Origin: Pseudofabraea citricarpa
Taxonomy: Eukaryota; Ascomycota; Leotiomycetes; Helotiales; Dermateaceae
Length of the DNA: 64,000 nt
Assembly: GCA_029641185.1 (NCBI GenBank)
Contig: JAPWGK010000013.1
Span: 434,001 to 498,000, forward strand
Direction of reading: 5' to 3'
Positions 12,426 to 39,655 of the stretch are shown one piece after another. Within the stretch, counting starts at the first letter, position 1; each line of letters begins with the position of its first letter. The position numbers were made by a program, and so were the translations under genes. The notes below the pieces were generated by a model that was not told the DNA's origin, ran no database searches, and saw nothing but the letters and a program-made list of their open reading frames with translations.

Positions 12426-12729
12426 CTTTGATTCTTCTTCAACTTCCTTTGGTCTGGACTTTTTAAGAGAGTTGCTCGCTTAATTCTCCGAGTCGTCCCG
12501 GGGAAGGCTCCGACTAAAAGCTCCGAACTTTTTCTTGGCACTTGTTGTTCCGCTGAAGTAACCGCTTCTCTTGCAAAGTGTTTAGCGCTCAGAACAAATT
12601 AAGATTTATTTGTAGGTAAAGCAGTTTGATATAAGTCTTCATCAGAACGAACCTTGCGTTCGTAGCTTTTCAATCGCACCTCACCATCTCCTGTCAATAG
12701 TTGAAGAAACCTCGGACTCCTTTACAATC
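12426..12729. promoter_or_regulatory. Divergent promoter: enoyl reductase / P450
   Basis: Three copies of CTCCGA (TCGGAG on the minus strand) lie at 12486, 12508 and 12521 within 41 bp, and a CTCGGAC lies at 12711. The same hexamer recurs in the acyltransferase and ceramide synthase promoters, so it may be the target of a cluster zinc-cluster regulator (inference). Confidence 0.5.
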
Positions 12730-15510: not shown

Positions 15511-17438
15511 CTACCGGTCAAAAGGAGTAAGACGAATTTGGACAGTTGGCTTTTGCCATATCATGAAAAGCCGCAAATCTCTATCCCAGTTTACCGTGTC
15601 CTTATTAACAAGTTCCCAATCAAATTTCCAGAATAACTTGGCCAAGATCATGCGGAGAACGAGGTAAGCCATCGCTTGTCCGAGACAGTTTCGAGACCCG
15701 GCACTAAACGGTCTGAATGCGCTTCGATCATCGGTATCGAATATATGATCATACTCTCCATGAGTTGTCGGTAGCCATCGCTGAGGTTTAAACTCGTAGG
15801 GTCTGTTGAAATATCGAGGTGAATGAGTCGTTGCGTAGGCACACGACGACGTTATGGTCTATAGTAACATCATTAGTGCCAGGGGCCACGAAAAAACAGA
15901 GTTGGAAAGGAAAGGAGAATGACTGACCCCTTTCGGTATATAATTTCCATCGACTGTGATCCCAGGACTGATTCTGGGTAGACCATATGGTACATTGGTA
16001 TGGGCTCGAAGGATCTCCTCAATAATTGCATGCAGCCACGGCAGGTCGTGAAGAACAGATTCTTGGATATCGTCAAAAGAATCGAAAGTTTCTCTCAGTT
16101 CCCTCTGAAGCTTGCCCATGACCTCTGAGTTTGTTGTTAAGAAGTAGATGCCCGCGGAAAGCACGCTCGAAGACTCAAAGTGGTCGAGGACTAAATGGCC
16201 AGCTTGTGCAGCGAGAAAATCATCAGGTGGTGGCGCTCCCTCACCTTTTAGGAATTGGAAGAGGTAGTCCAAGTGCTTTTGATCATGTCGCTCGGCTACA
16301 CGTTTGCGAACTAAGACTTTACTGGCTGTGTGCGCAGCAAAGTAACTGATGGCAACTTTGGGTGGGAGCAGTACATAGGACAAGGGGTATAATAATGGAA
16401 AGCGACGCATCACATTTCTGAGCGTAGCCCAATGACCGATGCGTGAAAGTGATACTAGGATCGGATGATCTTTGTCTATATACATCCAATCAGTTATCCC
16501 TCATTATAATTTAGCGAGGCTTGAGTCAGTGAACTTACCATCTCGTATACTATGGAGATTCTGACTCAGAGTCATAGCGCCACCAAGATCAGATGTTGCT
16601 CTTTCAAACCACTATATATCAGAGTCAATTTTAGATCTATTGATTGTGCTCATGGAATGAAGTACCGGGACGATGTTGACACCCACTTCAGTCGTTGCAG
16701 GGGAAGCCATGAGCTTGTGAACAAACTCGTCGACATGAGCACGAACAGTAGGCTCGTATTCCCTGAGTGCCCGGTTACTAAATGCAGGTGCCAATTGCTT
16801 GCGCGAAGTGCGATGTATGTCAATATCACGTTCAGACGCAAGGCCTTCGTATTTATCGCCAGTATCCAGCAAATCTGACTTGACAAAAGCTGGACGGCTG
16901 TTTATGGCGCTAGTATAGATATCTGCGTTAAGACTTAGCATACCTTGGAGAGTTTATCCAAGGACGAGGAATGAACTGCTTACCTGTATATGCTTTTGGG
17001 GTGATGAAAACCAACTCATTTGGTGCAATGCGAACTACATCTCCTGTTTATTGTAAGCAACGCTTATTGTAAAGTCAAGATATATTTACCATATTCGGCC
17101 AAAGCACGTTGCATCGCCCATGGATAACGCCCAGATAACCTTCCGGTTCACAATGTCAATTGTTGGAAAGAAGACTTGGACAAAGGCGCCTTACCATTGT
17201 CGGCCATACCAGATATTAGACACGGCAGCGATTTTAGGACCGGGAAATTTCGCCAAAGGATGAAACCAAAACAAATAGATGCACCGTGTCAAGGCGTATA
17301 GAAGTATCTAGGAAATTTCAGATGTTAAATTGTGCCTACTATACTGATCAAGACCTAACTTACGGCGCCAGCTGCCAAAATCACATAATCTTGCGAAAAG
17401 AGCTCTATTGTCATTGTTTTATGTATCAAACTCTCCAT
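15511..17438 (-). CDS. Cytochrome P450 (CYP65 / C-15 hydroxylase-like), intact
   Basis: Eight exons on the minus strand (17364-17438, 17195-17307, 17090-17139, 16984-17043, 16666-16922, 16539-16611, 15928-16475, 15511-15858) give 507 aa. N-terminal anchor VILAAGAILLYALTRCIYLF is followed by the proline hinge HPLAKFPGPK. Other landmarks are an I-helix region LDHFESSSV, the ExxR motif EILR, a PERF-like PQRW and the haem loop FRPFSAGSRNCLGQ with Cys450. The layout matches fungal P450s annotated as isotrichodermin C-15 hydroxylase, which are common tailoring enzymes. For the intron at 16476-16538 an alternative acceptor would leave only 39 bp; I chose the 63-bp version with a better branch site. 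It shares a 507-bp divergent promoter with the PKS-NRPS. Confidence 0.88.
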
Positions 17439-17945: not shown

Positions 17946-20900
17946 ATGGCGCCTTTAGAACCCTCATTTTCCCAACGAAATGAACCCATTGCAATTATTG
18001 GCAGTGGTTGCAGATTTCCAGGTGGTGCCAATTCTCCTTCCAAGCTATGGGAACTTTTGCGAGACCCTCGCGATGTGTTGAGTGAAATTCCACCTAGTCG
18101 ATTCGACATTCGCGGATTCTATCACCCCGACTCCCAGTTTCCTGGCCATACCAACGTCAAGCATTCATATATCTTAGAGGATGATGTGGCAGATTTTGAT
18201 GCCCAATTCTTCAACATCACGCCACCGGAAGCGGTGGCAATGGACCCGCAACAGCGCCTTCTCCTGGAAACTGTGTACGAAGGCCTTGAGACGGCTGGCC
18301 TGACAATTGAAGGATTGAAAGGCTCTGATACAGGAGTCTACGTTGGACAAATGTATGTAGACTACGAGTCCATGCAATTCCGTGATTTGCAACATATCCC
18401 GACATATCATGCTATCGGTAATAGTTCCATCCGAATTGAATCTAATGGATTGACTGATATTGTTTAGGGTCCGCCCGCAGCATTATTTCCAACAGAGTCT
18501 CGTACTTCTTTGACTGGCATGGTCCATCTTTGACAGTCGATACTGCCTGTTCCTCGAGTTTAGTTGCCCTGCACCAAGCTGTACAGGCTTTGAGAGCTGG
18601 GGAAGTTCACGTGGCGTTAGCGGCAGGGAGCAATCTTCTCCTTGGACCAGAGCCCTATATCCATGAGAGTAAGCTGAATATGCTCTCGCCGGATGGTCGG
18701 TCACGAATGTGGGACGAGAGAGCAAATGGGTATGCTCGCGGTGACGGTGTTGCTGCTATCGTTCTGAAAACACTTAGCGCTGCACTGGCGGATGGAGACA
18801 ACATCGAATGCATTATTCGAGAGACAGGCGTAAACCAAGACGGTCGAAGTCGTGGGATCACCATGCCTAGTGCAACAGCCCAAGCAACGTTAATTTGTGA
18901 GACCTACAACAAGGCAGGTCTTGACCCAAAGTCAAAGATAGATCGATGCCAGTATTTCGAAGCACATGGCACAGGAACTCCAGCAGGCGATCCAGTTGAA
19001 GCAGAAGCAGTGCACACAGCCTTTTTTGGAGACAGCACCGAGGAAAGCACCGCTCAAGAGCCTTTGTTTATAGGTTCGATCAAAACCATTATTGGACATA
19101 CAGAAAGCACAGCTGGACTTGCTGGCATCCTCAAGGTTGTGCAAGCCATGAAATATGGCTATATTCCTCCAAATTTGCTCCTGACTCACCTTAACCCGAC
19201 GGTTTTGCCGTTCTACGACAATTTGCATATCCCCCAAGATCTCACTCCATGGCCAAAGACTTCTGGACCTCGTCGTGCCAGCGTAAACAGTTTTGGATTT
19301 GGAGGCACCAACGCCCATGTTATTCTCGAAACTTTCGAGCCAACGCCGCCTCCAGAGAAAGAAAGACCTTCATTGGCCCCATCTTCTGTCGCACTATTCC
19401 TTTTCTCAGCCCAGTCAAAGCAGTCACTTCTCGCCAACCTGACCGCTCAAGCCAAGTACTTAGAAAACCATCCTGGCACCAATCCTACAGATCTCGCATG
19501 GACATTGCGCTCGCGCCGATCTCGTTTACCACTACGGGTCTCTTTACCAGCGTCATCTATCGAATCGCTGAGTTCTAGTTTAAACGAGCTAATTAGTAAT
19601 TTCCAACTGCATCCAAGATCTGCGACAAACGTCACCAACAAGGCCCGACTCCTTGGTGTTTTTACAGGTCAAGGGGCACAGTGGGCTCGCATGGGAGCTG
19701 AAATGGTTCTAACTTCAGAGTATGCTACAAACGTTCTAGCGGATCTAGATGATACGCTAGCTCAGTTACCCGAGAAAGATCGTCCTGAGAGGACTCTACG
19801 ACAGGAACTTCTGGCAGAACAGTCTTCAAGTAACGTCAACATTGCGTCTGTTTCGCAGCCACTTTGTACGGCCGTGCAAATTATTCTCGTGGAGCTTCTG
19901 CGTTTGGCTGGAATTGAATTCGCAGCAGTCGTTGGCCATTCTTCTGGAGAGATTGCCGCTGCATTTGCAGCTGGTTACTTATCTGCTCGCGACGCTATCA
20001 TCATTGCTTATTATCGTGGCCTTCATTCCCATCTCGCTGGGGGCCCAAACGGAATGCGAGGTTCAATGTTGGCGGTAGGAACATCTCTTGAAGATGCAGA
20101 AGAGCTTTGTAATGATGAAGAGTTTAAAGGAAGAGTCAAGGTTGCAGCCTGCAATTCTCCTTCGAGCCTTACTCTCTCTGGCGACGAGGACGCCATTGCT
20201 GAAATAGCCGAGCTCTACGAAGACGAGAACAAGTTTGTGCGCACTCTCAAAGTAGACAAAGCTTATCATTCTCACCATATGATTCCTTGTTCACAGCCTT
20301 ACTTGGATTCTATGAAGTACATCTCAATCAGAAAAGAGCGCCTTGAGTCGAATTGTACTTGGGTGTCTAGCGTCTATCCTGAGCGCCCTTTTAGCGAGAT
20401 GGGAGACGTGAGCCCCTCTTACTGGGTGGATAACTTATTGTCGCCGGTACTATTTAGACAAGCGATTGAACGAACTATGTCATTAGGTCCATTCGATGGA
20501 GCAATTGAAGTCGGGCCTCACCCGGCACTAAAGGGACCTGTACGCGACATACTGAAGGACATCCAAGTTGATATGCCTTATACTGGTTTGCTTCAACGGA
20601 ACAGCGATGCAAACCATAGTTTTTCTAGTGCTCTTGGATATCTCTGGACACACTTGGACAATCTTTCTATTGATTTTGACCGGTATGAAACCACCATGGG
20701 CGGACCTGCATCCCATCGTTTCATTCCAGACCTACCCGTGTACCAGTGGAACCACAATCAAAAGTATTGGCATGAGTCCGATCTTTCTAGAAATATCCGA
20801 CAGAGGAGTCAGCCGGTGCATCCATTGCTTGGTGATCTGATGCCCCAGAGTTCTCAACATCAAATCACATGGAAAGGCATCTTGCGGCCTCAAGATCTTC

Positions 20901-23900
20901 CCTGGATTCACGATCATCGTATTCAAGGTCAGACTGTCTTTCCAGCTGCTGGATATGCCGCTACGGCTTTAGAAACAGTCCCATTTCTATCTAGAGACGA
21001 TCCGGTTCAGCTTGTGGAGCTTGAAAATTTCATGATTCATCAAGCGATGGTATTTGAAAACCATGACCAAGAATCAGGCATTGAAGTTCGATCCGTAGTC
21101 AGCAGCATAAATCGAGCAAATCTAGGTTTCGTCACGGCTCACTTCACGTATGAAGCTTGCATTGGAAACCAGCAAACCTTCGAGTTAGTGGCAAGCGGTG
21201 AAATAACCATCATCATCGGTGATGCAACCCTAGAAACTCTACCTGCAACAAAGAGCCTTGAGCCCTACATGGCAGATGTGCCGACCGAGACCTTCTATTC
21301 TGCATTGAAGGACGTAGGGTACGAATATTCGGGCTCTTTCAAAGCACTATCCACGTTAAAGAGGAAGCTCGGCAAAGCATCTGGAGCAGTCGCTATGGTC
21401 ACTTCCGTACTCAATACAGAGACCCTGGTCGTTCATCCGGCAGTGTTAGATGCTGCATTCCACTCTATCATTTTAGCTTTCAGTTTCCCCCATGATGGAC
21501 AACTCCGTTCGTTGCACTTACCAACTCGTATCCAAAGGATTAGAATAAATCCTTCGCTTTGTGGGCAGCATTGGTTGCATGTTGGAGATGCGCCCTTCGT
21601 TGCGACGATTCCCGAAGCTCATGCAGCTAACATGACCTCTGGATTCAAAGGTGATGTAGAAATCCACAATAGTACTGGGGAATACTGCGCTATTCAAGTT
21701 GAAGGAGTCCATGTCGTGCCATTTACTCCTGCAACACAATCTGATGATCAAAGGCCGTTTCACGCAATGCACTGGGTTAATGCGGAGCCCAATGCAGACA
21801 TTCCTGATATATTCCAAGCAACAGCTGAAGAAAAACAGCTAGCAATTATCCTCGAGCGTGGTGCTTTCTTTTATTTACGCCAACTAGAGCACCAAATCCC
21901 GGTTGATCATCCTGGAAGATCCGATCAATACAACGCTGCCTACTTGAAGTTCGCAGCACACACTCACAAAATGTTGTTAGACGGGAAACATCGCTACGCT
22001 CAAAAGGAATGGCTTAAGGACACTGTGGAGGATATTGTGGCTGCAGCTGAGCCATTCTCTGGCCGTCCCCAGGTTAAAGCGATGCATGTCGTTGGAGAGC
22101 AAATGCCGCGTGCTATTCGAGGGGAGACTACAATGCTCGAGCATTTGATGATGAACAGCCTTCTGGACGACTACTACGCGAATGCCGTAAGCACAACCAA
22201 AGGAACTGACGTTCTGGCCGAAACGGTCATTCAGATTGCTAGGCGCTATCCCCGTGGAAATATTTTAGAAGTTGGAGCGGGAACTGGCGGCGCAACCCGG
22301 CAAATCTTGAAGCTCATCGGTGATGACTTTTCAAGCTACACTTTCACGGATGTGTCGGCAGGATTCTTTGATAGTGCTCAGTCAGAATTCGAACTCTACA
22401 AAGACCGTATGACATACAGCCTACTAGACCTCGAGCAAGACATGCAGACGCAAGGTTTCGAGAAGCATTCATACGATCTCGTAGTAGCATCTTTGGTTCT
22501 TCATGCTACAAAAAGCATCGAGCAGACAGTGCGTAGAGTTCGATCATTGCTGAAGCCAGGTGGCTATTTGATTTTGTTGGAGTTGACTAATGTGCACATT
22601 ATCAATGCCAATGCCTTATTTGGTTGTCTTCCAGGCTGGTGGCAGGGTATAGAAGAGGGACGAACATTAGGAGCTGCTGCAACAGAGTCACAATGGGACA
22701 CCATCTTACGCAAGACCGGATTTTCCGGCATAGATACCATGACGCCTATTCAGGATGCTTTAACCTTGCCAACCTCAGTATTGGTCTCACAAGCTGTTGA
22801 CGACTGGGTGGAGTTTATTAGGGAGCCCCTCTTGGCACGTCCGTCGCTTGTCATGGGACGAGCAATTGTCAAGCACTTATTCATTGTTGGCGGAACGACA
22901 CTTCGTGTCTCTCGTCTTATTCAGGATGTTCAAAAACTCATTCAAGGATTTTGTGAAGACTTAACACGAGTGGAAAGCCTTTCGGAATTAGACCACACCA
23001 AGATCGATTCAAATTCAACAGTATTGATCCTCGAAGACCTTGACGAGCCTGTCTTCAAAGACATTTCTGAGGCACGACTTGATAGTCTGAAAAGGTTGTT
23101 TGGGTCCGAAAAATACATTGTCTGGGTCACCCAGAACCGTATGATTGACAATCCCTATGCTAACATGCCAATCGGCTTTGCGCGGTCTGTTTTATGGGAA
23201 GTGCCGGACGTTCAATATCAGTTCATTGACTTCGAAGATGTCCTCAAGATCGATGGAAGGGCATTGGCAGAAGCCGTGCTACGATTCCAGGCGTCAGGAT
23301 CTATCAAAGAACAAAGCCAAAGAAATACATTATGGTCGGTTGAGCATGAAATAATTATCAAATCCGACGGACGCCAACTAGTTCCGCGATTGAAGCCTGT
23401 GAGTGGAGCAAACGATCGCTATAACTCCGCACGCAGGACAATCAGAAAAGATATCCAGCCACAAAAGTGCCCTGTGCTTGTTACCAACTTGGATGGCCAA
23501 TACAATCTTCATGAGCAGCCCACGCTCAGTGGCGGGAAGGCAAATACGCACAATAATTCTACAATTTCAATGAAGTTGAGCCATTCCACATTGAGCGCTA
23601 TCAGAACAATCTTCGGAGATTCATATGTGGTATTAGGGAATTGTAGCACCAGCGGTGCCCAATATCTCGGCCTGACGAATTCAGCTGTATCACTCGTTGA
23701 GATTTCGCAAAGCAACCTGGTTCCTAGCTCAATAACACCCCAATCAGAAGCTTTGTTTTTGAGCCTGATCGCGGCACATCTTCTCTTACCAGCCATTATA
23801 GCAGAACTCGCCGAAGGAGACAATCTTGTCGTCCACGAAGCACCCGCGATAATGCCAACCATCCTCGGTCGTCAAGCGAAACTCGCTGCAGTCAAGTTAA

Positions 23901-26900
23901 TTTACACAACCGCCTCGCAAAGGAAAGCAAAAGATAATGGCTGGATTTATGTTAACCGATATTCACGTCAATCCCATTTGAAATCCCTTCTCCCTCCGAA
24001 GGTATCTCGATGCGTTGATTTCACTACTCCTGGACAGTCATCTACTAAAATTTCACCCATCGAGTTGTGCTTACCCCCGGATACCAAAGTCTTCAATACG
24101 TCTGTCTTATTTCCAAACAATGGGTCGCTCAATTCATCAACTCGGAATAACAGCTCTAGGATTAATGACGTATTGAAAATAGCGATGATTTCTGCATTGG
24201 CAGATCTTAGCAACTGGCCGCAGAACTGTACACCACTTGGTCAAATTAATATTCGGGATATAGTTGAGAAAGCAGGTTCATGTGACCCTCTCACAACAAT
24301 AGAGTGGACTACGCCATCTCTATCTGTCACCATTCAGCCAGTCAAAACCCAGTTTAAGTCGGACCAAACTTACTGGCTTGTTGGCCTTTCTAGGGATCTG
24401 GGACTTTCTATCGCAGACTGGATGATCAGAAATGGGGCTAAAAATCTGGTAATAACCAGCCGCAATCCGAAAGTTGACAAGTCTTGGCTAGAAAACGCGA
24501 ATCGCAGTGGAACAGTCGTCCGAGTCTTGAGCAAGTAAGTTTATAACATCGCCGTGAGCAATCCACACTGACAAAGCAATACAGTGATCTTACAGACTGG
24601 GACTCGGTCCAAGAGACGTACCAAGAAATCTGCAAGACAATGCCTCCAATTGCTGGAGTAGCTCAAGGTGCCATGATATTGAATGACGTTGCAACTCGAG
24701 ACATGACAGTGGAGATATTGACGCGGGTTCTACGCCCAAAAGTCGAAGGTAGTTTGAATTTGGATCGTCTTTTCTATGATGAACCATTGGATTTCTTCGT
24801 ATTCTTTGCTTCAGCTGCGAATGTTGTGGGGAATCTGGGGCAGGCGAGCTACACTGCTGCAAATATGTTTATGGCTGGTTTAGCTCAGCAACGTCGTCGG
24901 CGAGGCCTTTCGGCGTCAGTGATGGATCTTGGATTAATCATGGGCACTGGCTACATTACCCGTGAAAAAGGCGACGAGCTGACAAAACCTTCCTGGGAAA
25001 GGGGCCTTTTAACTATATCAGAATCCGATGTGCACCAGACCTTTGCAGAAGTCATCAATTCTGGTCGCTTAGACTCTGGGGCAGAGTGGGAAATTGCAAT
25101 GGGTTTGAGACTAATACAATCCAGCACACCCAATCCACCACCCTGGTACTCATATCCCCAGTTTGCCTGTATGACAGTCAGGAATTCCGAGGACGAAAAC
25201 AACACCTCGAACAGCCAGGCTGGAGCATCTATCAAAGATCAGCTGACTGATGCGACGACGAAAGATGAAGTCGAGAAAATCATTACTGGTAAAAGAACCA
25301 TCACTTTAAACCCTTCATATTTTTTTCGTTTTAAATGAGCAGTGCTAATAGAAATTCTAGAGACTTTTGTCATCGAAATCCGCAAGCTGCTTCACCTCAG
25401 TGATGATTACGAAATCACCACTTCTGTTCGCACTAATGAGCTGGGGCTTGACTCGCTTGTTGCAGTCCGCATCAGGTCCTGGTTTTTGAATAACTATCAA
25501 GTCAATATACCTGCTCTAAGAATTCTGAAGGGCACATCGCTCCAAGAACTGATTGAACAGGCAGTGGAAGATATTCCAGACGAACTGATGCCCAAAATAT
25601 CTTCTACGCAGGATCTACAGCCAGAAATCAACGCAGCTTCCTCGTCTCATAGCTCTACTGATAATGCCTCCGTTGCATCTGAGACACCAATTTCCAGTGC
25701 ACAAACAGAGGCTTCATCTATTCACGAAGATTTGGATGCCCAGGAATCATTGGAGGATGTACAGCCGCAAGAAATGGAGTTGAAGAGGTTTGGGCAGCTT
25801 TCTTATACACAGTCAGTATTTCTGTTTGTACATGAGCTCTTGAATGATAAGTCAACTCTGAACAATTCAGGCATGCTACATCTTAGGGGCGAAATTCGAA
25901 TAGCCGATCTAGCAAAGGCCGTTCGAGCCCTTGGGCAGCGCCATGAAGCTCTAAGAACATGCATTTGCGAACGAGATGGTAAACATGTCCAAGGAGTTCT
26001 TGAGTCTGCGTCTCTTATTCTTGAACACAAGAGAGTATATACCCAGGAAGATCTTTATAAGGAGTACGCATCTTTAAGAAACAACGTCTTTGATCTATCC
26101 CGGGGCCGAACGAGCAAAATAATCCTTCTTTCTTATGCCTCAATGGACCATTATCTTTTAATGAGCTCTCACCACATTGTTTTTGATCGAGCAAGCAATG
26201 ACGCCCTCATGGCCGATCTGGAACGGGCATACAACGGGTTGCAGCCAGGGCCTGATCCGCTACAACATTTGGATTACTCAAATCAGCAGCATGACCAGTA
26301 CTTAAGGGGCGATTGGAAAGAAGCCATTGAATTCTGGCGCCATGAGTTTGATACAATTCCAGATTCTTTGCCCCTTCACCGTAGTCGGGTGTCTGAACGG
26401 AGACCACTTGAGAAGTACGCATCTCACACACCCGAGTTTCAAATCGATAAACAGCTGTCAGCGAAGATTCGTGAGGCTGCAAGAAAGTATCGATCGACAC
26501 CGTTCCATTTCCACCTTGCCGCTTTCAAAGTATTGCTTCATCGCTTTCTTGGAGTAAGAGATGTTTGCATCGGTATTGCAGATAATTGTCGCAGGGACGA
26601 TCACATGCGTACAGGTATCGGACCATTCCTCAACATGCTTCCTTTGCGTATGAACAGCAGCGCAGAACAACGTTTTGGTGATGCCATATCTGAGGCTCGC
26701 GAAAAGAGCTTATTGGTTCTTACAAATTCTATTCCATTCGAGGTCATTTTGAACGAACTCCAAGTCACTCGTCCTTCAACACACACCCCACTGGCTCAGG
26801 CGTTCATGAATTATGCCGAGAACGATATGGAAGACGGGCAGTCATTCCTTGGCTGTCGCATGGAAATAATGGATCAGAACCCAGCCGAAATTCCTTACGA

Positions 26901-29900
26901 TATCACTTTCACTATTATAAACAACGCTGCTGGTGATACACGCATCGTATTAAATGTTCAGCAGTCTCTTTACACTGAAGATGATACTATGCTGATAGCT
27001 AATGGATATGAAGATATTCTACGAGAGTTCGCAACTGCACCGGAGGAGAAAATTGGAGATAAGTGGCAGTTTAGACAACCTGTTCTAGAGAAGGCGTTGA
27101 CCATTGGCCGAGGTAAGTAGTTTGAGTCAAATTCAGGCTAGACGGTGAACAGTTACCATTGACATGAATTCAGAAACTGATTTTTCTTAGGACCTAGCTT
27201 TAATTCCACATGGCCAGAAACCCTGGTGCACAAATTCGAGACACTGTTCCCTAGGATCGCTCATAGAGTTGCAGTAACAGATGGCAACGACACCTCAATG
27301 ACTTACGGACAACTTTCTCAAGAGATCAATACCATTGCAGCTGAATTGCTGAGCAAGAAAGTTGAGCCCGGCTCAAGAGTTGCAATTTTCCAGAATCCGA
27401 CCGTTCATTGGGTAGCTTGCGTTGTCGCAATTATGAAGATTGGCGCGGTATATGTCCCCCTGGATGCTGGAACCCCAGTCGCACGATTATCATTGATCGT
27501 TAGCGACTGCCAACCTGCCGCCATTCTCGTTCACGATTCTACTCTAGAACAGACAGAGAAGCTGGATTGTCCCACCAGTACCATGATCGTTAATGTGTCC
27601 CGTCTACCTAAGACAGAAAATTTAACTATTGCAATTCTTGCTCGGCCCGAGACTCCAGCCATTATCCTTTACACGAGCGGCTCGACTGGAACACCAAAAG
27701 GAGTTGTCCTTCAACATGCCAGTTTGAAGCACGAGTTCGACCACTGTGCCGCCACATATAGATTGGGAGAACAAGATGTCGTATTGCAACAGAGTGCATG
27801 GAGCTTCGATGTCTCCGTAACTCAAATTTTCCTAGCTCTGGGAGTTGGAGCAAGACTGCATATCGTCTCACATCTCATGCGGGCCGATTCGCGCGCAATT
27901 GCAGAGCTGATCAAAAATCAAGGTGTAACAGCAACCTACGCAACTCCGACAGAATACAAAAGTTGGCTTCGACGAGAGCACCAGGATATCTTGCGAACGT
28001 CATCTTGGCAGCTCAGTTTAGTTGCAGGCGAGGCCGTCACAGAACCATTGCTTCAACTTTACCGAGAATTAAACCGTCCTGGCTTACGACTTTTCAATGT
28101 CTACGGCCCAACAGAGACGACATGTGGCTCGACCAAAATGGAACTACAGTACAAAAAGCCTTCCTTCTATCAACACGCGATTCCGGTCGGACGAGCATCA
28201 GCAAATGAATGTTTCTACATTTTGGACGGAAATCAAAAACTCCAGCCAAATGGTCAAATAGGAGAGATAGTCATCGGTGGCGTAGGGGTAGCTATGGGAT
28301 ATCTCAACAACGATGAGCGAACCCTATTGTCTTTCTTGCCTGATCCCTTTGCTGGTGGCGAGTATATCAAACACGGTTGGAACACCATGTATCGAACAGG
28401 TGACCTCGGATACCTAAAGAATGACGGCACACTTGTCCTGAAGGGCCGCATTGGAGACGATACTGAGATCAAGCTTAACGGCGTTCGAATCGATCTGGCG
28501 GATATTGAGCAGACCGTACTCAAAGCTGGAAATGGAATTATGGCCGACGCTGTGGCATCCCTTCGCACTACGCCAGACGAATCAGTGAAGTTCATAGTTG
28601 TCCATGTCATATTTTCATCTGAGAACTTGACTATGGATAGGGACCTCTTTCTCCAAACTCTTCTAAACAATCTGCCATTACCACGCACAATGCGTCCATC
28701 AGCAATCATTTCCGTCGACAGCTTTCCTCGATCTGTTGCAGGAAAAGTTGACAGGAGAGCCATTAGCTCATTGTCAATCCCACGAAAGTTGTTCTCTGTA
28801 ACAAAAGTGTCGGTATTATCAAAAGGCGAGGAAGCGATGGGAAGCTTGTGGGAAATTGTGATTCCAGAAGAACTCGTCACGCTTCATCAAATTAACCCGG
28901 ACTCTGATTTTTTCAGCATTGGAGGAAACTCTATGTTGCTAATTGAGTTACAACACAAGATCCGAGAGCGTTTCAACGTTTCAATTCCGCTTTTCAAACT
29001 TTTTCAGGCGAGCACGCTACGGCCTATGGCTCAACTTCTTAGCAATGATGAATTTGAAAATAACGATCAGATTGATTGGGCTGTGGAAACACAATTGCAG
29101 CCTAATTTAGACATCTCAACAGCTTCACATAACGTCGACCAACCTGCAACTCCTCCTCGGGTCATTGTGTTGACGGGAGCAACTGGCTTCCTAGGTCAGC
29201 ATTTGCTGAGCGCTCTCATCGATCAAAAGAACATCCAAAAGATAATCTGCATCGCAACAAGGAGCTTTGATGAGAACAGAAGAGCTCTCTTCTCTAAACT
29301 GGACAAAGTTGAATGTTACGAGGGAGATTTGAGATTGCCTCGCTTAGGACTGACAGAGGAAGATGCGACCCGTATCTTCCAACTGGCAGATTCAGTCATA
29401 CACAATGGTGCAGATGTCTCACATCTCAAGACATATTCTTCTTTGCGCTCCGCGAATCTTGTGTCAACTCAAGAGCTGGTCAAACTGTGTCTTCCGAGGA
29501 TGATCCCACTGCACTTTATATCCACCACCGGAGTGACGATGTACTCGGCATCTGAAACTTTCGCTGAGGTCTCGATCCGCAACTCAACGCCACCCACTGA
29601 TGGTTTGTATGGCTATATCGCCTCAAAATGGGCCGCCGAGGTGTACCTCGAGAATTCAAATGCTTGTTACGATCTTCCTGTCTACATTCACCGACCATCG
29701 AGTATCATCCGTCCGGAAGTCGACATGATGGGCGACAACCCTGCCGCAGATGTTCTACAAGATATGCTGGCCTACTCGTACCGTATAAAAACGGTGCCAG
29801 TAGCGCCTGCTCTACGCGGGATCCTGGATCTTGTCCATCCGGATACCGTTACAAGAGGAGTAGTTCAAGCCTTGATGGGTCGCCAGCCCGAATCTGGGAA

Positions 29901-30120
29901 TAAAATCATTTATATTCATGAATCGGGAGATACGGAGCTAGATGTTTCGCAGCTTCGAGCACATCTAGAAAGAGAAACTGGAAATGATGTCGATGAACTG
30001 CCGTTGGAGGAGTGGATTACCTGTGCAGAAAATGCTGGGCTATCGAACTCTATGGCTGCTGTATTTCGCGGCCTTGGAGAAGCCGAACAGATAAACTTTC
30101 CAAGGCTACTTAGAAGATAG
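17946..30120 (+). CDS. Hybrid PKS-NRPS megasynthase
   Basis: Five exons (17946-18417, 18468-24534, 24585-25288, 25343-27112, 27191-30120) give 3980 aa. KS has Cys185 in DTACSSS, His324 in EAHGTGT and His368. AT has Ser649 in GHSSGE. DH has His974 (HxxxGxxxxP) and Asp1152. The C-methyltransferase has [12 protein letters not shown] near 1428. KR has Ser2256 and Tyr2269; the ER-like region before it seems inactive. ACP Ser2452 is in LGLDSL. The C domain has HHIVFDRAS (His2691/2692, Asp2696; Arg replaces the usual Gly after Asp). The A domain has [11 protein letters not shown] near 3165. PCP Ser3585 is in GGNSML. The terminal R domain has TGATGFLG near 3666 and an intact YxxxK (Tyr3813, Lys3817). 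It builds a methylated, highly reduced polyketide with the trans enoyl reductase and condenses it with one amino acid. The intact R motif allows reductive (aldehyde) release; Dieckmann release to a tetramic acid cannot be excluded. Confidence 0.95.
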
Positions 30121-30908
30121 TAGACGATTAGTTAGCTGAAGAACTTGTAGGATATATATACAATCTACCATATGTTTACCCATTTCTTTATATATATCTT
30201 CCTGGGTATACCGCCCACATGTTATAGCCGACACTCAGTGAGAACTGTCCGTGAACTGCGTCACATTAAACTCTATAAATTTTCTTTTCTCTTTTAATTT
30301 CTTCCTTTTCTTTATAAAACAAAGGCTACAAAACCTAGCCTCAAAATTAATTTCAGATTCCAATAATCGTCGCCTTTGCCACATATTACCTAATCAAGCT
30401 AAAATCAAGCATCCACTACATGAAGCGCGTCGGGCCTTTCAAGAAATCGGATCTTTCAGATATAGTAACGTGTAGATGAGAGACCAAGGCTAGCCGTTAA
30501 AAATTTTCTTTAGCAACACTACTTCGTACTTAGTCCTACTCTACGCCGATGTTTGCTGGTCGCTTAACTTATAGCCAATTGAAAACCATCTGTCACATGG
30601 GTTCATTACCATCCAATCGCACTGATCTTAGTATTATTCATGCCTGAATTTGCTGGATCCTCCGGATCTGAAAATTCAAAGTCAAAGCTCGAGTCTAAGG
30701 TATGGGGTTTTCGGAGGCTTTTCCACTCGGCACCATACATTCGGCATGTTTCCCCCGTTCGGCAACATATCCGCGCGGTTTGAGTGAACCTAAAAACAAG
30801 AATCCCATCTATGCTGCGATCACTTTATCTTATTCTGATTAATACAATCCGTATTCTCTGTTACCGTCGTCTTTATTGCATCTTGAACGGCATCGTCCAG
30901 AAATCAGC
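30121..30908. promoter_or_regulatory. Spacer and promoter of the acyltransferase
   Basis: The first part is the AT-rich 3' flank of the synthase. At 30710-30724 lies TTCGGAGGCTTTTCC, whose first 14 bases recur exactly at 34171-34184. Three TCGGCA copies follow at 30727, 30741 and 30759. The acyltransferase start is about 145 bp downstream. Confidence 0.5.
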
Positions 30909-32361
30909 ATGGCGGCAACGAACTACCCTTGGACAGAGAAGAACAATGTCTGGCGCCGCAAACTCGGCTCTATGGAGTCCTTGTACCTAGCGCTTGCCTC
31001 TCCTGAGGGCATGCCCGTACACTGGATGATTGGATGTTGCGTATCACTCAAATACCAGCGCTCATCTCCTCTAAACATTTCCCACTCTCTCCTCCTGGCA
31101 TGGAAATCTCTCCGCCCAGACTTTCCCAACGTCGCTGCTACTGTTGACCCTGAGACGAAGGAGATAGTCCTGCAGACTGAGGGGAAGGAGGAGGAGTGGT
31201 TGGAGCGAAGCTTCAAGGTGCACGAGAGCGGGACGGCGAGTGAGCTTTTTGAGAAATTCCGGAGCCAGTTCTGCATCACACTTCATTTTATACAGGGGAC
31301 GAATGAATTGCTGATCCAGGCGCCGCATTCGCTGATTGACGGCCGCGGAATACTTTACTTGTACCATTCGCTCTTTACTGCACTCTCTAAATCATCAGTA
31401 TCTCGGCTCGAAAATGGGCATCTCAAATCGGGACAGCCAAATCTTACAAGGCCATTTGACGACTGGCTTAATGTCTCCGCCGTGCCATCTGAGAAGAATA
31501 TCAAAGATGCGCAGGGGCTTTTCTTCAGGGTGCTCAGCCAGGAAAAGCCTATTCGACTGCCTGGTGTAAATTTTGATCGTACACCCGGGAAACCAACCCA
31601 TCGGGAACTACTGCTTGATGAGAAGACTACAAAAGCAATCATCTCAGCGTGCAAGCAAACAGGCGTCTCGGTGACTTCGGCGTGGCATGCTGCGCTTGCT
31701 TTAGCTGTGCAGGTATATTTTGTTCCCCTTCACTTACTGTACCATTGTCCTTGCATTTACTAATTACCTGTAGAAAATCCAAGAAGCAGGAGGCGAGGAG
31801 GGGACAACGTACGCACAAATCACAACCATCGATCTGCGACGGTATTTCCCCTCTCCCTTCGTTCCCAATACGCATTCGATAGGGAGTCTGCAAACAGGTC
31901 TCCCGTTCTCAGTTTCCATCGCCCCGAGCAGTATAACACAGACTGATGAGACCGCATTTCGCAGCCTCGCACAGTCCCTCAATACACAATATCGTTCACC
32001 CTTCTCATTCACCACTACACCCACAAACTCAAACCCCGATTTTGGCTTCCTAACACCCTTGACTTCAATGTCCACCCAGCTTCTCTTAAGCGGTGGTATG
32101 CCACCTAGCAGTACGCCAAGTCTCTCAAGTATGGGTGCGGTATCAGACATCATGCAAGAGAGTTATGGAGAGTGGGACGTTGAGAGCTTCTGGGTCAGTA
32201 GTACCATGATGACGGGTGACTTTCAGGTATACTGCTGGACGTTCAGAGATCGGATGGCGTTCAGCGTATGTTGGAACGAAGCCTTTTACAGCATAGAGAC
32301 GGTAGACGCGGTGTTGGAAGGAACGAGGGAAGAAATTCTTTCTGGACTGAAGATTGTGTAA
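30909..32361 (+). CDS. HxxxD acyltransferase (condensation/BAHD-like fold)
   Basis: Two exons (30909-31712 and 31774-32361, 61-bp intron) give 463 aa from the ATG in the context AGCATGGCG. The upstream in-frame extension to 30876 begins only at TTG. Residues 140-144 (HSLID, within QAPHSLIDGRG) form the HxxxD catalytic motif of CoA- or carrier-dependent acyltransferases of the condensation-domain superfamily. The C-terminal half contains the second lobe (IGSLQTGLPFSVS). No membrane segments or signal peptide were seen, so it is probably cytosolic. It lies 0.8 kb downstream of the PKS-NRPS on the same strand and shares a promoter element with the ceramide synthases. Likely role: O- or N-acylation of the cluster product, or an unknown step (inference). 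It could also be a trichothecene-3-O-acetyltransferase-like detoxifying enzyme. Confidence 0.8.
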
Positions 32362-32719: not shown

Positions 32720-34007
32720 TTATGCGTCTCTCCTTCTCTTTGAGATTACGGCCTTCTCATTGCCGTTCGCCTTATGCAGGCCGCTCGCATGACCATTCGC
32801 GAAGCCGTTACCATTTAGCAATGGCAAAACCTCAGTATTTTCCTTGGAAATATCAATCGCCTCCTTTTTCGTTTTCTCAAGATCCTCTATCCCCGACTCC
32901 TCGGCCTCTGACCTGTCGTCCTTGGCAACCTTCTCCACGACAAGCCGGTACGCACTCCGGAAAAGGCAGTACAGCCAAAAGAGGTTCAGGGCCTGGAGTG
33001 ACGCCAGCAGGGTAAGAGCAATGACGTTGGATAGGAGACATTTATATTGCTGGGTCTCCCAATTGAGCTCGTAGGGACCGACGGTCTTAAACTCTGTTAA
33101 GATGGAATAGAGAATACGGATATTTATATAGTGACGCAAGTAGATCCATACGCATATATTGAAGCCGAAGTATGGCCCTTGGAGGGGGCTGCTGATATAA
33201 TTGAGAGATTTAGATGTCTATAGCAGAGCATTGAGTTAGTGCCTGTCCAGAAAGTCACCCAAGAGCCCAGGGAGGATGACTTACGGCAAGGAAGAAATCA
33301 CTGATGTCATGGGTCAGATAGACGGCGATGCCCATATACGTGAAGTGAAACCGGTAACTCAAGCCGATAAGAGACAAAGTAACGATATGATGTGCCACAA
33401 GCTCCTTGAAGTCTTTGCGCCGCTTCTCCATGCCCAGCACCAGTACTACGGCCTGCTGCGCCCAATACGCAGCCTGGAACAAATAGTAGAACTTAAAGCT
33501 TGCCTCGTGGGTTTTGTGCGGGAAAGACTCGTACATCCCTCTCGTATTGAAATACCATACCGGTGTTCTGCTTATCACATAGATACCCGCGGGCCCCATG
33601 ATTGCGAAATAAACGGCTGTATACATCTGCTCCATAAATCTTGCTTGTTTTCCACGCGATTTAAGACCGTAGAATTGAGCCAAGGGGCGTAAAAGTTCTT
33701 GCATGATAAACTCGCGTGTAAAAGACAAGACTATCATGTAGAACGACACGAACGCAAAATCCCAAACACCCTTATCATACTGTGCAGGTGAGCTCGGATC
33801 AACACCTAATTCGAAAGGCAGTTTATAGGAGAGGAAAATAAAATGATGGATGATGTTCGCCTCGGTTGGGTTAATGGCGAATAAAGAGAGGAAGACAAGT
33901 AGAGGAACAAGTGGAATTATCCAGGTATGCTGCATAGCAAATCGTTTGGCCCGACGTAGATTTGAACGAGCCTTTTTGCGCCTTGGGAACTTCTTCTGCT
34001 CACTCAT
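32720..34007 (-). CDS. Ceramide synthase, BarA-like (TLC domain)
   Basis: Two exons (33285-34007 and 32720-33217, 67-bp intron) give 406 aa. The ATG at 34007 (MSEQKKFPRRKKAR) is preferred because the upstream in-frame extension starts at TTG. It is a multi-pass ER membrane protein with a basic N-terminus and a TLC domain. The Lag1 motif is visible at HHIVTL, then SYRFHFTYMG and THDISDFF, with the paired histidines and both Asp residues kept. SKSLNY and YLRHY follow. This wording is typical of the fungal BarA class, which N-acylates sphingoid bases for the glucosylceramide branch. The acidic, Lys-rich C-terminal tail is usual. It is divergent from a second, LAG1-class ceramide synthase and sits inside the cluster, so it is more likely a resistant duplicate than the housekeeping enzyme (inference). 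Confidence 0.85.
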
Positions 34008-34558
34008 CGTTGTTGTTGGCCAAGCACCAAAGATGGCAAAGGAGTGAAGGGAAGGAAAGGAAAAGAGAGAGGGGGAAAACAAAAAAAGACGGATTGTTAG
34101 TGGAGAAGATGGGGAATGTTTAATTGCAATTCGTATCTTCGTACATTTCGTTGCCTACGTACAAGCCATGTTCGGAGGCTTTTCTTTTTACCAGCTCGGA
34201 AGGTTTCCCCCCGTCGGTGAAGCGAGAGGCGGAACTCCGTTCGCTAACCCGCGGGTTTTCCGGGGGCCTGTGTACTTCCAAAAGCCTGGACGTGTATCTC
34301 CTATTAACTTATATAAATTAAATGCCATCTCGGATTGATTCTGAACTTAGTAAATAACTTTTAGTAAAGATGTAAAGCACGTTAACCAGAAATTATCTAC
34401 AAAAAAGACCCCGGGGTTAGCGAGCGGAATTGCATCCCTCTCTCCGAGCCCGTCGGAGGCTTTAACACGACTCTGTAAGCGAGGCTGGCAACTAGCGACG
34501 ATTGAATCAACTGGTAGTCGACAAGTCAGCAGCGTGAATCCAAACCTCCACTTGCAGG
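34008..34558. promoter_or_regulatory. Divergent promoter of the ceramide synthase pair
   Basis: Contains TTCGGAGGCTTTTC at 34171-34184, identical over 14 bp to the acyltransferase promoter element at 30710. It also has TCGGAGGCTTT at 34453-34463, and a perfect inverted repeat CTCCGA-N5-TCGGAG at 34442-34458. This is the best sequence evidence that the pair is co-regulated with the cluster. Confidence 0.6.
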
Positions 34559-36174
34559 ATGGCACCAAAATCTCAAATACAGCACTCGATTCCAGACGCA
34601 CCGTACGGACTGCCGAGCAATAAGAGAAATGGCAGGAAGGAAAAGAGGAGAGCTGGGAGAGAGCTGAAGAGTTTGTCTCGTTCAGTGCAGGACAATCAAA
34701 CTGGTACGTTCATCAAACCGAATTCATCGCCATCTCACCGCTATTGCTGGTGAGAGTTGCTTTGCTCTGCCTTGGGGCAACCATACCAACATCACCATAG
34801 CCATAAAACAACTCTCCAAAACTCGTACAATTACACTGCAGGATCTTAACTCACATCTACTCTACCACTCCCACCTCTAACAATGCGGTGCAACCAGGCG
34901 TCTCTCTCAGCCTCATCGCACTTCTCTTCCTCGCACATATCTTCATACCCGGGGCGCAGAAATATACCTCTAGATTCTTCACGCTTTCTTACTACAACTC
35001 CGTGACGGGGCAATATGCTGCCGGTCATGACGACTTCTACCTCATATCATTTTGCATCGTTCTCCTCACTGGTATTCGAGCGGGGTGTATGGAATATATC
35101 TTAGCTCCACTGGGCAAATTGTGGGGGATCTCGAAGGAAAAGGACATTACCAGATTCGCCGAGCAAGGATGGGTGCTGGCCTACTACAATGTACTCTGGC
35201 CACTAGGTGTGGTGCGTATGCTTTACCCCCTGGGCTACGGTAATTAACTTCTTTTCACAGTACCTCTACTATAAATCGTCGTATTTCCTCAACATGGATG
35301 AGATGTTTCTCAACTGGCCTCAGCGAGAGCTAGATGGGCCCACAAAGGCCTACATCCTCTTGCAATTGTCGTACTGCATACAAGAAGTCTATGTCATCAA
35401 TATCGAGGATCGTAGGAAGGATCACTGGCAGATGCTGACGCACCATTTCGTCACTATTGCCCTCATCTACGCTTCATATATCTACCATATGACGCGGATC
35501 GGGCATGTGATTTTGGTGGTTATGGATTTCATCGACATTGTTCTTCCCGTAAGTCGTGACAGACTACAAGGCCTTGAGCTCTACTGACAATCATACAGCT
35601 TGCAAAGTGTCTCAAATACCTCGGTTTCAGCACCATCTGTGATGTTGCATTCGGATTCTTTATCCTCTCCTGGTTCGTCACCCGCCACGTTCTGTATGTC
35701 ATCATATGCTATAGTGTGTACGTCTCTACGCCCCGCCTCATAAAACCAGCCTGCTATCATGGCTCCATGGACAATTTGCAAGGTCCTCTCCCGGTTCCTA
35801 ACACCGGGTGGTCTCACTACTTTGAAGCATTCTTTGATCCTTCGGCTACCATCTGCTGGGATAGGGGCGTCATGTTCACCTTCCTCGCGTACCTACTTTT
35901 CCTCGAGGTCATGATGATCATGTGGTTTGCGTTCATCATGCGCGTTGCAATGTGTGTTCTAAGCGGCAAGGGGGCAGTGGATGTGAGGAGCGATAGTGAG
36001 GCGGAGCAAGAAGAAATGGAGGAAGAACCACAGGTTTTCAGAGAGGAAGTCAGTGTCAAGGCTCTCGACTTGAAGGGATGGGGATGCTGCACAAATGTCA
36101 ATAAAACTACGGCTTCAAGCTCAGGCGGGGCTAGATTGCTGAAGAGGATTGGATGTGAAAAGCAGATTGATTGA
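34559..36174 (+). CDS. Ceramide synthase, LAG1/LagA-like (TLC domain)
   Basis: Four exons (34559-34703, 34898-35211, 35261-35548, 35599-36174) give 440 aa. The first intron is long (194 bp) and ends at AACCAG after a CTAAC branch site; an earlier CAG would give an immediate stop. The N-terminus is basic and soluble, then multiple membrane segments begin at VSLSLIALLFLAHIFI. The Lag1 motif is complete: LTHHFVTIALIYASYIYH, then RIGHVILVVMDFIDIVLP and LAKCLKYLGF. This form with MDFID is typical of LAG1/LAC1 (LagA) enzymes that make phytoceramide with very long acyl chains. An acidic segment (EAEQEEMEEE) near the C-terminus resembles the Lip1/CK2-regulated tail of yeast Lag1. Together with its divergent BarA-like neighbour it covers both fungal ceramide synthase classes. 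Confidence 0.85.
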
Positions 36175-36950: not shown

Positions 36951-39324
36951 CTAATACGGCAGCAGCAGCGAAAGGCCTGTCGACTCGCCATCCTCACCAT
37001 CCTCACCAGCTTCACCAGCCTCGCCAGCTTCCTCAGCTGGAGCATTTACCAAATCCCAGTCCATCGCAGACCAGTCTAGCTGATTGACATCAGCATCCCG
37101 CGGAGTCAGTCCAGGCATATCAGGGTATGCTTCAAGCCCCGTTATAGGGTATCCGTCTTGGCCTCGCATATCATAAAGAAGGCTATGATCACCAAGGCCC
37201 ATAGGCATTGAGGAAGGAGAGTCGTCGATGATAGCCAAGTCGGCAGGAGCACTTGACTGTCCAGCATCATGGTTCCGTGCCTCGCGTGCTATCTGTGCCA
37301 CTTTGTGTCTGATAGACGACACGATCCTAGCTGGTACTAGCGGGTCTCCCGATTGTTTGAAGGCAGCCTCGCGGGCCGCCCACGCCTGGAGGACGATGTT
37401 GGAGAAGATTTTGAAGAAGGGGATGTCGTCGCGGTGCAGAAGACCGAAGCGGGCCTCGTAGTTGTCGCTCATGACTTCCCAGGCCTGCTCGGCTTGCTTC
37501 CTGGTAGGTCGCCGCTTCAGGTTTTGGACGATGTGCAGGTATGCGGGAAAGGGGAAGTAGAAGTGGACTAGCCAGACAAATCCTTTGGTGAGGGGTGAGG
37601 TCATGACCTTTGTATCGCACTCGAGCATGCTGAGCGCATACGAAATGGTAGTATCGCGATGCTCCTCCGTCTGATGCACGGAAGAGCTGGAATGCTTGGA
37701 GTGGTGTTCCATGAGGCGGCATTTAGCAAGGTATCCTCGTGTTGTCCAGATCGTCATGAAGTGGAGTGGGTTCTCTGGGTTACAGAATTTTAGATACTTG
37801 TCCTCGATCATGTTTTCCAGGCTGACCAGCTCACTGCCTTCTGAAATAGGTACATCCTTCACAACAGGCTTCAAAGCTGGATTGGTAAAGTCAAGGTGGA
37901 ACATAGTGTGCCGAACAAACTCCCCCAGCTCACTGCGCACCACGGCGAACAGTGCCTCAGTAGATCTCCCCTGAACCTGTGGTGGTTCTTTCATCTCTAT
38001 TCGGAAATCAGAATCATTAACATTAAGAGGAATCCTACAGTCCCACGTAGGGGTTAGCGTTGCGGCCTTAGAGTCAGCCATCTCGCCGATGCGAGTATCG
38101 AATAGCACAAGCGACCACCAAAGCCTTCGACGCATTTCTGCCTCGAGGGCGGTGCATTTAGCTAAAGCCGACTCGCTGTGTATACCCATACGTTGCGCAA
38201 TGCGAATTGCAATGCCAAGAATGGAGGATAGAGATTGAGGAACTGTACTAGGTCTAACCGAAACCTAAAATCGTTAGAAATTATCAACATAGTAAGATGG
38301 TAGACATACTAGGTAGAGGAATAATGCCGTCAAGCACTCGCGATCGCCAGATCGTAAAAATCCACAATTCAATAGAGCTTGCTGACAACCGAATTGATAC
38401 TTCGTCAAAAGATCGACTTTTGAAGAACCAAACATGACCTGGCAGTCATCTGCTGTGAGGCTTAGGATAGACATGCAATAGATGCTGAACATCAGTGCCT
38501 CCAAGGTAGGCTTGATATTTGAGACATTACTGACGGCTTCTATGATGCGTCCTTGCAGGCTGGGAGCGTGTGTGACCTTGAGCAGCGGATTGACGTTGTC
38601 GACATAGAGCTGCCAAAGTCTAAATATCTGGATAGGATCGGGGTGTAAAGTAGAGATGTCGACGGCTTTTTGACGAGAGCCAAATAGGAGGTGGTCATTC
38701 TTTTCACATAGATGATCCCACGCCTTCTTGACTGCAACTTCACGCACATCGTCATCCGAGGAATCGCTGTCATTATTAGGGTCTCGGAACTATTCCAATT
38801 ATCAGTAGGGCTTGGATCACATGAGATATAGTTGTACCTCCTGATTCATGGCGTGCCATATATTTCTAAGGCAATTAGTCACGGTCAGATAGTTGTTTGG
38901 AGAGCGCATACTTAGTCTTGTATACCCTTTCGGAATTAACGGCTGTCGATGGAGAAGAGCAATCAGGCTCTGCAGCTTTTGGCTGTTCGTCAGCGGAATC
39001 ATAGCCACCCTCCCCGTTGGGAGAAGCCTTCTCTCCAGATGAATTCTTGTGAAGCGGCTCGAACTTTATGTTATTTTGACGGAGCAAGTCCTCGTATTTG
39101 CGCAGACGTTCTAGCAACTCTCTCTCGGGGAATCTGCGTCTTCGCTGGCGGGATGCTAGTGCCGCCGGTACACATTGTGTCCGGGACTTGATGCAATTAG
39201 CACAAGGATATTTCCGATCACACTTCACCTTGCGCTGTTGACAGAGCACACACGAAAGCACACGCTGTGGCTTCGAAAGTTGGGATGGGGTGCTCCTATC
39301 TATTGTGGACTGCACTGTCGACAT
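36951..39324 (-). CDS. Zn2Cys6 transcription factor with fungal_trans-like domain
   Basis: Four exons (38912-39324, 38838-38865, 38310-38789, 36951-38264; introns 45-48 bp, one exon only 28 bp) give 744 aa. The zinc cluster is at residues 25-51 (Cys 25, 28, 35, 41, 44, 51; CVLCQQRKVKC and PCANCIKSRTQC). It is followed by a heptad-like dimerisation helix (ELLERLRKYEDLLRQN). The middle carries the fungal-specific regulator region (PIQIFRLWQLYVDNVNPLLKVTH, MRRRLWWSLVLFDTRIGEM). The C-terminus has a short Glu/Gly repeat (GEAGEAGEDGEDGE). It borders the ceramide synthase genes and could regulate them or the cluster, but this family is very large and it may be unrelated. Confidence 0.88.
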
Positions 39325-39600
39325 GGTTACTACACCAGAGGATTCCTGGCCAGCTATTGGGCATTGAGCAGTATCTGTGTTGTCTTGAGGTTGTGATTCG
39401 GGTTCTTATAAATTCCCGATGACACGTCATGTGATCATACTCTCACCTCACATGATGCAGTTACTCTCCTCTCCGTTGAGAAACTTGATTTTCCAAGGAG
39501 TATACTTAAGTTCGTGGATACATAAGTCTCATATTATAGTACAGTCATATGAATGAGCCAAGAAAAGCACTGAAGAAAAGGCTTCGAAGGGGAGAATTTG

Positions 39601-39655
39601 TCGGGCTTTAGTAAAGCCTGACCACACATTTTTCTCGGGCTTTAGTAAAGCCCGA
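39601..39655. repeat. Two near-identical 21-bp hairpin palindromes
   Basis: TCGGGCTTTAGTAAAGCCTGA (39601-39621) and TCGGGCTTTAGTAAAGCCCGA (39635-39655). The second has perfect 9-bp arms around a 3-base loop; the first has one mismatch. They lie 34 bp apart in direct orientation. They could be a transposon-end remnant, a protein-binding site or a hairpin in a transcript; no surrounding element with target duplications was found. Confidence 0.7.

Follow-up and report, generated by a model that had tools for sequence, protein, structure and literature searches.

A 64,000-nucleotide stretch of the genome of the leotiomycete Pseudofabraea citricarpa (C5:434001-498000 of a 44-Mb assembly in 43 contigs; hereafter, the window) almost certainly carries an extra, intact pair of ceramide synthase (CerS) genes of two classes within a polyketide synthase-nonribosomal peptide synthetase (PKS-NRPS) gene cluster. 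We estimate at about 0.55 the probability that this pair is a self-protection module, in which the target of a CerS-inhibiting product of the PKS-NRPS is duplicated. Self-protection is favored because the copies are extra, are not sisters of the tested host copies and retain the catalytic HH/DxxD residues; because LagA-class CerS genes are linked to relatives of this PKS-NRPS in four other fungi, with co-varying identity matrices; and because the pair has a shared promoter element and a precedent in FUM18 and the FUM15-19 genes.

Divergent ceramide synthase genes of two classes

The initial annotation placed two divergent CerS genes, one of each fungal class, in this part of the window, and gene models together with PF03798 and PDB matches bear out their position. 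Both genes are intact, with diverging start codons 551 bp apart:

32720..34007, minus strand: win_Bar, BarA-class ceramide synthase, 406 aa, two exons (34007-33285, 33217-32720); from the gene model, PF03798, PDB Lac1 and the tree.
34559..36174, plus strand: win_Lag, LagA-class ceramide synthase, 440 aa, four exons (34559-34703, 34898-35211, 35261-35548, 35599-36174); from the gene model, PF03798, PDB Lac1 and the tree.

All four introns have GT-AG borders. Both products match the TLC domain (PF03798; E = 7.6e-28 for win_Bar, whose exon 1 is also matched, and 3.0e-23 for win_Lag), and each matches six PDB sequences, five from yeast Lac1/Lag1 and one from human CerS6 (best E, with Lac1, 2e-92 for win_Bar and 5e-29 for win_Lag). 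By sequence, the two are CerS of different classes because they are only 29% identical to each other and each is nearer a host gene of its own class (64% for win_Bar with the gene on contig C9, 42% for win_Lag with the gene at 1.84 Mb on contig C1, C1:1840).

The characteristic motifs are AHH...THDISDFF in win_Bar and THH...MDFIDIVLP in win_Lag. Both contain the catalytic HH and two Asp residues (DxxD) located 28 and 31 positions beyond the first His, a spacing derived from CerS6 residue numbers (PMC11919693). The C-terminal DxRSDxE motif, which separates CerS from other TLC proteins (PMC8789539), is exact in win_Lag (DVRSDSE) and one residue off in win_Bar (DDRSEAE). Among the near-invariant columns, defined as those at least 97% invariant among 120 homologues with one set per class, win_Bar keeps 114 of 116 and win_Lag 74 of 77, so that neither gene looks decayed. 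A pseudogene reading is rejected, given the intact gene models and this retention.

At win_Lag position 192, Trp is present in 117 of the 120 homologues and Cys in the window copy; the exceptions among the homologues are Xylogone P0124 and Lachnellula suecica P0127 (both Cys) and L. cervina P0187 (Tyr). This is a possible pocket change, yet not one peculiar to the cluster, because the host C1:1840 gene also lacks the Trp (Tyr). The position is presumably adjacent to the equivalent of CerS6 Tyr189.

The pair sits inside a run of cluster-type genes because a PKS-NRPS and a probable acyltransferase lie on one side of it and a Zn2Cys6 gene on the other:

17946..30120, plus strand: PKS-NRPS, five exons, KS-AT-DH-MT-KR-ACP-C-A-T-R; from domain matches, introns and relatives.
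30843..32361, plus strand: probable acyltransferase with an HSLIDG motif; weak PapA_C match (Pfam E = 0.0011, 18.8 bits, below the curated 30-bit cut-off).
36954..39405, minus strand: Zn2Cys6 transcription factor; Zn_clus and Fungal_trans pieces.

The distance of 2.6 kb from the megasynthase to the pair, as initially given, stands, with the refinement that the probable acyltransferase gene (30843-32361) occupies that gap. We take HSLIDG to be an HxxxD-type acyltransferase motif.

Other ceramide synthase genes of the host

A PF03798 search of the genome identifies six CerS-type genes, namely, the window pair and four elsewhere: BarA-class genes on C9 and C16, and LagA-class genes on C1 at 1.84 Mb (C1:1840) and 2.22 Mb (C1:2223). 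Second copies of both classes, which the initial annotation proposed to look for, are therefore present, two per class, and the possibility it raised that the window pair are the only CerS genes of this fungus is excluded. Two further PF03798 proteins, on C8 and C23, are presumably of the TMEM56/TLCD4 type.

The near-invariant columns are kept at 116/116 in the C9 gene, 92/116 in C16, 72/77 in C1:1840 and 66/77 in C1:2223. The C9 gene groups with leotiomycete BarA genes, is 94% identical to that of Phlyctema vagabunda (Helotiales), as would suit a helotialean host, and lies near PalH; judging from its sequence, it is the BarA gene that this lineage would be expected to have. C1:1840 lies among ordinary genes. 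No PKS or NRPS domains were detected in the flanking open reading frames scanned, ten each for C1:2.22 Mb and C16 and about five each for C9 and C1:1.84 Mb.

In the BarA-class CerS-like gene at C16:202697-203361, 24 of the 116 near-invariant positions are altered and the second catalytic Asp is replaced by Glu (SNDIPEFF), so this gene has perhaps changed in function. The LagA-class gene at C1:2222801-2223657 is very divergent (11 of 77 near-invariant positions altered) and adjoins REV1 and other ordinary genes.

Phylogeny of the pair

Phylogenetic trees of the BarA class (34 rows) and the LagA class (36 rows) were built without the Fusarium FUM17/FUM18 and the ALT7 sequences. win_Bar falls in a six-row group (support 96/95) whose other members are Xylogone P0010, Chlorociboria P0082 and three proteins from Lachnellula, of which two carry the name FUM17; the second Xylogone BarA copy, P0089, groups with ordinary leotiomycete genes. 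win_Lag clusters with Xylogone P0124 and two Lachnellula proteins, both bearing the name FUM18, in a group of four rows (support 92/89, which the program does not star). The comparison of the pair with the host's own copies, as suggested in the initial annotation, places both genes outside the C9 and C1:1840 lineages: approximately unbiased (AU) tests reject win_Bar as sister to C9 (p = 3e-61) and win_Lag as sister to C1:1840 (p = 8e-5). A recent tandem duplication is thus rejected for these two host copies, which are the ones the AU tests covered, as distinct from C16 and C1:2223.

Since Xylogone and Lachnellula, both Leotiomycetes, have counterparts related to each of the two window genes, the trees suggest an old leotiomycete pair. 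The two Xylogone relatives, P0010 (BarA) and P0124 (LagA), are on one 6.9-Mb contig (both listed at 6,927,901). Monosporascus 5C6A offers another two-class CerS pair, of lineages other than those of the window: its BarA-class P0099 and LagA-class P0146 have consecutive locus tags (DL771_006323, DL771_006324). Podospora didyma and Hypoxylon NC1633 may also have pairs on one contig, but these were set aside because the contigs are long and say little about adjacency. Both the Xylogone and the Monosporascus 5C6A arrangements are compatible with conservation of the pair apart from the cluster, which the initial annotation had named as a finding that would speak against its proposal.

A short protein of Aspergillus wentii (P0041, 403 aa) is the only Aspergillus sequence among the best 120 of 1932 win_Bar matches and comes from the species with the closest PKS-NRPS; it may be a cluster copy. 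A sister relationship of P0041 and win_Bar is disfavored (AU p = 0.031).

Association of the PKS-NRPS family with ceramide synthases

Linkage was scored by eye, as the same species and a contig of equal size in two match lists, among the best 120 of 1932 matches for the BarA class, 120 of 481 for the LagA class and 120 of 1907 for the PKS part, so that all linkage counts are lower bounds. The PKS list includes 27 relatives of the PKS-NRPS at 55-71% identity over the PKS part. At least 4 of the 27, from at least three orders, share their contig with a LagA-class CerS among the matches listed:

Monosporascus CRB-9-2 (Xylariales), 64-kb contig: PKS-NRPS and LagA-class CerS, locus tags 007712 and 007710, two apart.
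Triangularia setosa (Sordariales), 223-kb contig: PKS-NRPS relative and LagA-class CerS.
Cladorrhinum PSN332, 279-kb contig: PKS-NRPS relative and LagA-class CerS.
Cordyceps javanica (Hypocreales): PKS-NRPS and LagA-class CerS, locus tags 000862 and 000868, six apart.

These four fungi support a connection between this PKS-NRPS family and CerS.

The identity matrices of the PKS and LagA-class proteins are closely correlated across six species, the four above plus Lecanicillium saksenae and Colletotrichum graminicola, whose genes were not shown to share a contig (r = 0.988; of 720 permutations, only the observed one gets this high), and remain so with the window added (r = 0.914, 1 of 5040). 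Shared species history was not factored out of these correlations, but in both the PKS and the LagA trees Monosporascus is nearer to Colletotrichum than to the Sordariales rows. The PKS-NRPS and LagA-class CerS of Monosporascus CRB-9-2 (P0242, P0176) fall next to or within the Colletotrichum copies although this fungus belongs to the Xylariales, which looks like acquisition of the cluster by transfer.

In the PKS tree, the window sequence lies beside A. wentii (support 80), followed by the Colletotrichum/Monosporascus/Triangularia set. Descent of win_Lag as a co-traveller of the PKS-NRPS, together with the LagA copies of that set, is rejected (AU p = 0.0015, a somewhat generous value given that the group was named after a first tree), and win_Lag is 49-51% identical to these copies vs 63-69% for the PKS. 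The LagA gene may have been replaced in the window lineage, or CerS may have joined this PKS-NRPS family more than once; a repeated origin of the association is possible because win_Lag is of another lineage than the LagA copies of the relatives. Repeated recruitment, or replacement, would favor a functional link, and a passenger would do neither.

The shared promoter

The 551 bp between the two start codons contain a long inverted repeat with an element in each arm:

34008..34558, no strand: divergent promoter of 551 bp that holds an imperfect inverted repeat of 39 nt, its arms at 34221-34259 and 34405-34443.
34236..34255, plus strand: promoter element copy 1, TCCG-Y-TCGCTAACCC..GGG, on the win_Bar side; from a pattern search.
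34409..34428, minus strand: promoter element copy 2, inverted, on the win_Lag side; from a pattern search.

Of 1000 dinucleotide shuffles, none scores as high as the repeat; of 227 tiles of the window, one does. The core pattern (TCGCTAACCC, 0-3 bases, GGG) has two sites in the 44-Mb genome, both in the CerS promoter and in opposite orientation; it was picked after the repeat had been seen, and about 5 matches in 44 Mb are expected by base count alone. The absence of further sites is therefore unremarkable. What stands out is the inverted pair, an arrangement that fits joint control of the two CerS genes.

Upstream of the Zn2Cys6 gene beyond the pair, at 39597-39656, are two tandem near-perfect palindromes, perhaps an autoregulatory site, whose GGCTTTAGTAAAGCC core has no other exact occurrence in the genome. 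This core has 5 matches in the window, vs 1.0 expected, four of which are the palindromes themselves, and one core site with a single mismatch lies at 34359 in the CerS promoter; this is too weak to serve as evidence of a cluster-wide regulator motif.

Known cluster-encoded ceramide synthases

Fungal CerS inhibitors that can be named are few: fumonisins, AAL toxins and australifungin. CerS genes are known from the fumonisin and AAL-toxin clusters (PMC11209526, PMC11796371, PMC12821873, PMC13161914). As in the window, FUM17 and FUM18 of the Fusarium fumonisin cluster are two adjacent CerS genes in a polyketide cluster, with more CerS genes elsewhere in the genome. They differ in lying beside a PKS, not a PKS-NRPS, with Fum8 coupling alanine to the polyketide chain (PMC11796371), and in having overlapping 3' ends (PMC11209526), whereas the window genes share a divergent promoter. 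Another CerS gene, ALT7, lies within or close to a cluster for a sphinganine analogue, the AAL toxin of Alternaria and Bipolaris (PMC12821873); unlike the window pair, it is a single gene. Yeast Lac1/Lag1 and human CerS6 (PDB 8izd, 8qtn, 8qz6, 8qz7) are of the same family as the window genes, with the same HH/DxxD spacing, but are ordinary cellular enzymes outside clusters. The PKS-NRPS relatives of Aspergillus wentii, Monosporascus, Colletotrichum, Triangularia and Cordyceps are 58-71% identical to that of the window over the PKS part, and several, like it, share a contig with a LagA-class CerS; they differ in having no BarA partner on their contigs, among the matches listed, and LagA genes of other lineages.

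FUM15-19 are described as a self-protection subcluster (PMC11796371), and FUM18 gives yeast resistance to fumonisin B1 (PMC11209526). The fumonisin precedent is nevertheless weaker than the initial annotation had it: FUM18 is not necessary in Fusarium according to one group and contributes according to another (PMC11209526, PMC11796371, PMC12821873, PMC13161914), FUM17 did not protect yeast (PMC11209526), and ALT7 reportedly confers no resistance and is not a close relative of FUM17/18 (PMC12821873).

The initial annotation's remark that it knew of no described PKS-NRPS cluster with this pairing also needs a qualification. We recognized no described link between a PKS-NRPS and CerS among the open-access papers listed by our searches; ceramide or sphingolipid terms do not occur in PMC8403587, nor does ceramide in PMC9495618. 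Some of the listed BarA-class proteins are, however, named FUM17 by their sources, and some LagA-class ones FUM18, so that the fumonisin cluster may hold the same two-class pairing beside a PKS and the pairing as such is perhaps not new. A spare target in a cluster is of a known kind; its combination with this PKS-NRPS family and both CerS classes is new, as far as these listings show.

Self-protection and alternative explanations

If the pair serves self-protection, the PKS-NRPS product would compete with the sphingoid base or the acyl-CoA at ceramide synthase. Once the cluster is on, the divergent promoter would yield two spare CerS, one per branch, either less sensitive or simply adding capacity, and ceramide synthesis would continue while the host's own CerS are inhibited. 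Several observations weigh against this scenario. In the best-120 lists, the other 23 of the 27 PKS-NRPS relatives have no listed CerS on the same contig, and three of those 23 species have listed LagA-class matches on other contigs: Lecanicillium saksenae, with a fragmented assembly, Colletotrichum graminicola, apparently with two assemblies, and Astrocystis. BarA-class CerS are found on the contigs of 0 of the 27 relatives (best 120 of 1932 matches); among the matches listed, a BarA-class copy beside this PKS-NRPS is seen solely in the window. The pair's relatives in Xylogone and Lachnellula come without a close PKS-NRPS: among the best 120 of 1907 PKS matches there is no Xylogone protein, and those of Lachnellula are only 43% identical. 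The lower identity of win_Lag than of the PKS to the relatives, and the rejected co-travel, point the same way, and the six-species correlation takes no account of species relationship, with four of its six pairs on one contig. No convincing regulator motif common to the cluster promoters was found among 39 spaced triplet patterns. Finally, the cluster CerS genes of Fusarium and Alternaria are reported dispensable (PMC12821873, PMC11209526).

Some of these observations suit a passenger or general second set, that is, old leotiomycete BarA/LagA duplicates for membrane lipids or stress that came to lie beside the cluster by chance or capture, without a cluster function. In Xylogone and Lachnellula, relatives of both genes are found together, and the 120 listed PKS matches contain no close relative of this PKS-NRPS from either genus; the pair also has its own promoter element with no motif found in common with other cluster genes. 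We nevertheless consider this explanation doubtful, given that the Zn2Cys6 gene past the pair puts it inside the cluster-type run and that four other fungi show an independent linkage of LagA-class CerS with relatives of this PKS-NRPS. A role in biosynthesis, with one or both enzymes N-acylating the PKS-NRPS amine or acylating a sphingoid-like intermediate as a tailoring step, draws on the ability of CerS6 to N-acylate fumonisin B1 (PMC11919693) and on the reductive release domain of the NRPS, whose action might yield an aldehyde or an amino alcohol. It appears improbable: two enzymes of different classes exceed the need of one tailoring step, a separate probable acyltransferase is already in the cluster, and the catalytic and near-invariant positions resemble those of ordinary CerS. 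That the pair represents the host's ordinary CerS, placed here by chance, agrees with the intactness and good conservation of both genes but is very hard to sustain when the BarA gene proper to the host's lineage is C9, C1:1840 is a further LagA gene among ordinary genes, and the window copies fall outside the host-copy lineages; the six CerS-type genes and the tree tests lead us to reject housekeeping by position.

Self-protection thus remains the preferred reading. We more tentatively propose, as an extension that is itself rather unlikely to hold in full, that this PKS-NRPS family, found in several fungal orders, makes a CerS inhibitor not of the fumonisin type and that spare CerS were taken up independently at least twice, the window lineage having gone furthest, with one resistant enzyme per branch and one divergent promoter. 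If true, a PKS-NRPS family repeatedly linked to CerS would direct attention to a new class of inhibitors whose target is already predicted. It would also make it possible to study why producing fungi require a single spare enzyme or a pair, a question left open by the unclear roles of FUM17, FUM18 and ALT7.

The rest of the cluster and a second TLC gene beside a PKS

The PKS-NRPS is complete, with an ATG at 17946, a stop at 30120 and four frame breaks each readable as a GT-AG intron (18418-18467, 24535-24584, 25289-25342 and 27113-27190, chosen among several options each). Its next-best match in the whole genome is 42% identical over the PKS. The remaining genes on the far side of the cluster are as follows:

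7787..9097, minus strand: second Zn2Cys6 protein; domain match.
9312..10656, plus strand: cytochrome P450; C-terminal part matched, first exon guessed.
11279..12479, minus strand: zinc-type dehydrogenase; ADH_N.
12616..14925, plus strand: cytochrome P450 pieces; heme-binding end alone matched.
15514..16953, minus strand: cytochrome P450 pieces; domain match.

From left to right, the order is Zn2Cys6, P450, dehydrogenase, two P450 sets, PKS-NRPS, acyltransferase, CerS pair and Zn2Cys6. Because the domain scan gave no enoyl reductase match in the PKS, the zinc-type dehydrogenase probably acts in trans as the missing enoyl reductase. Past the Zn2Cys6 regulator, ordinary genes follow (DUF846, an HpcH/HpaI protein and eIF2-gamma pieces).

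Elsewhere in the genome, at approximately C23:2218588-2227600, the TMEM56/TLCD4-like TLC gene lies directly upstream of a highly reducing PKS with matches to KS, AT, DH, MT, ER, KR and ACP, a second instance in this fungus of a TLC protein lying next to a PKS.

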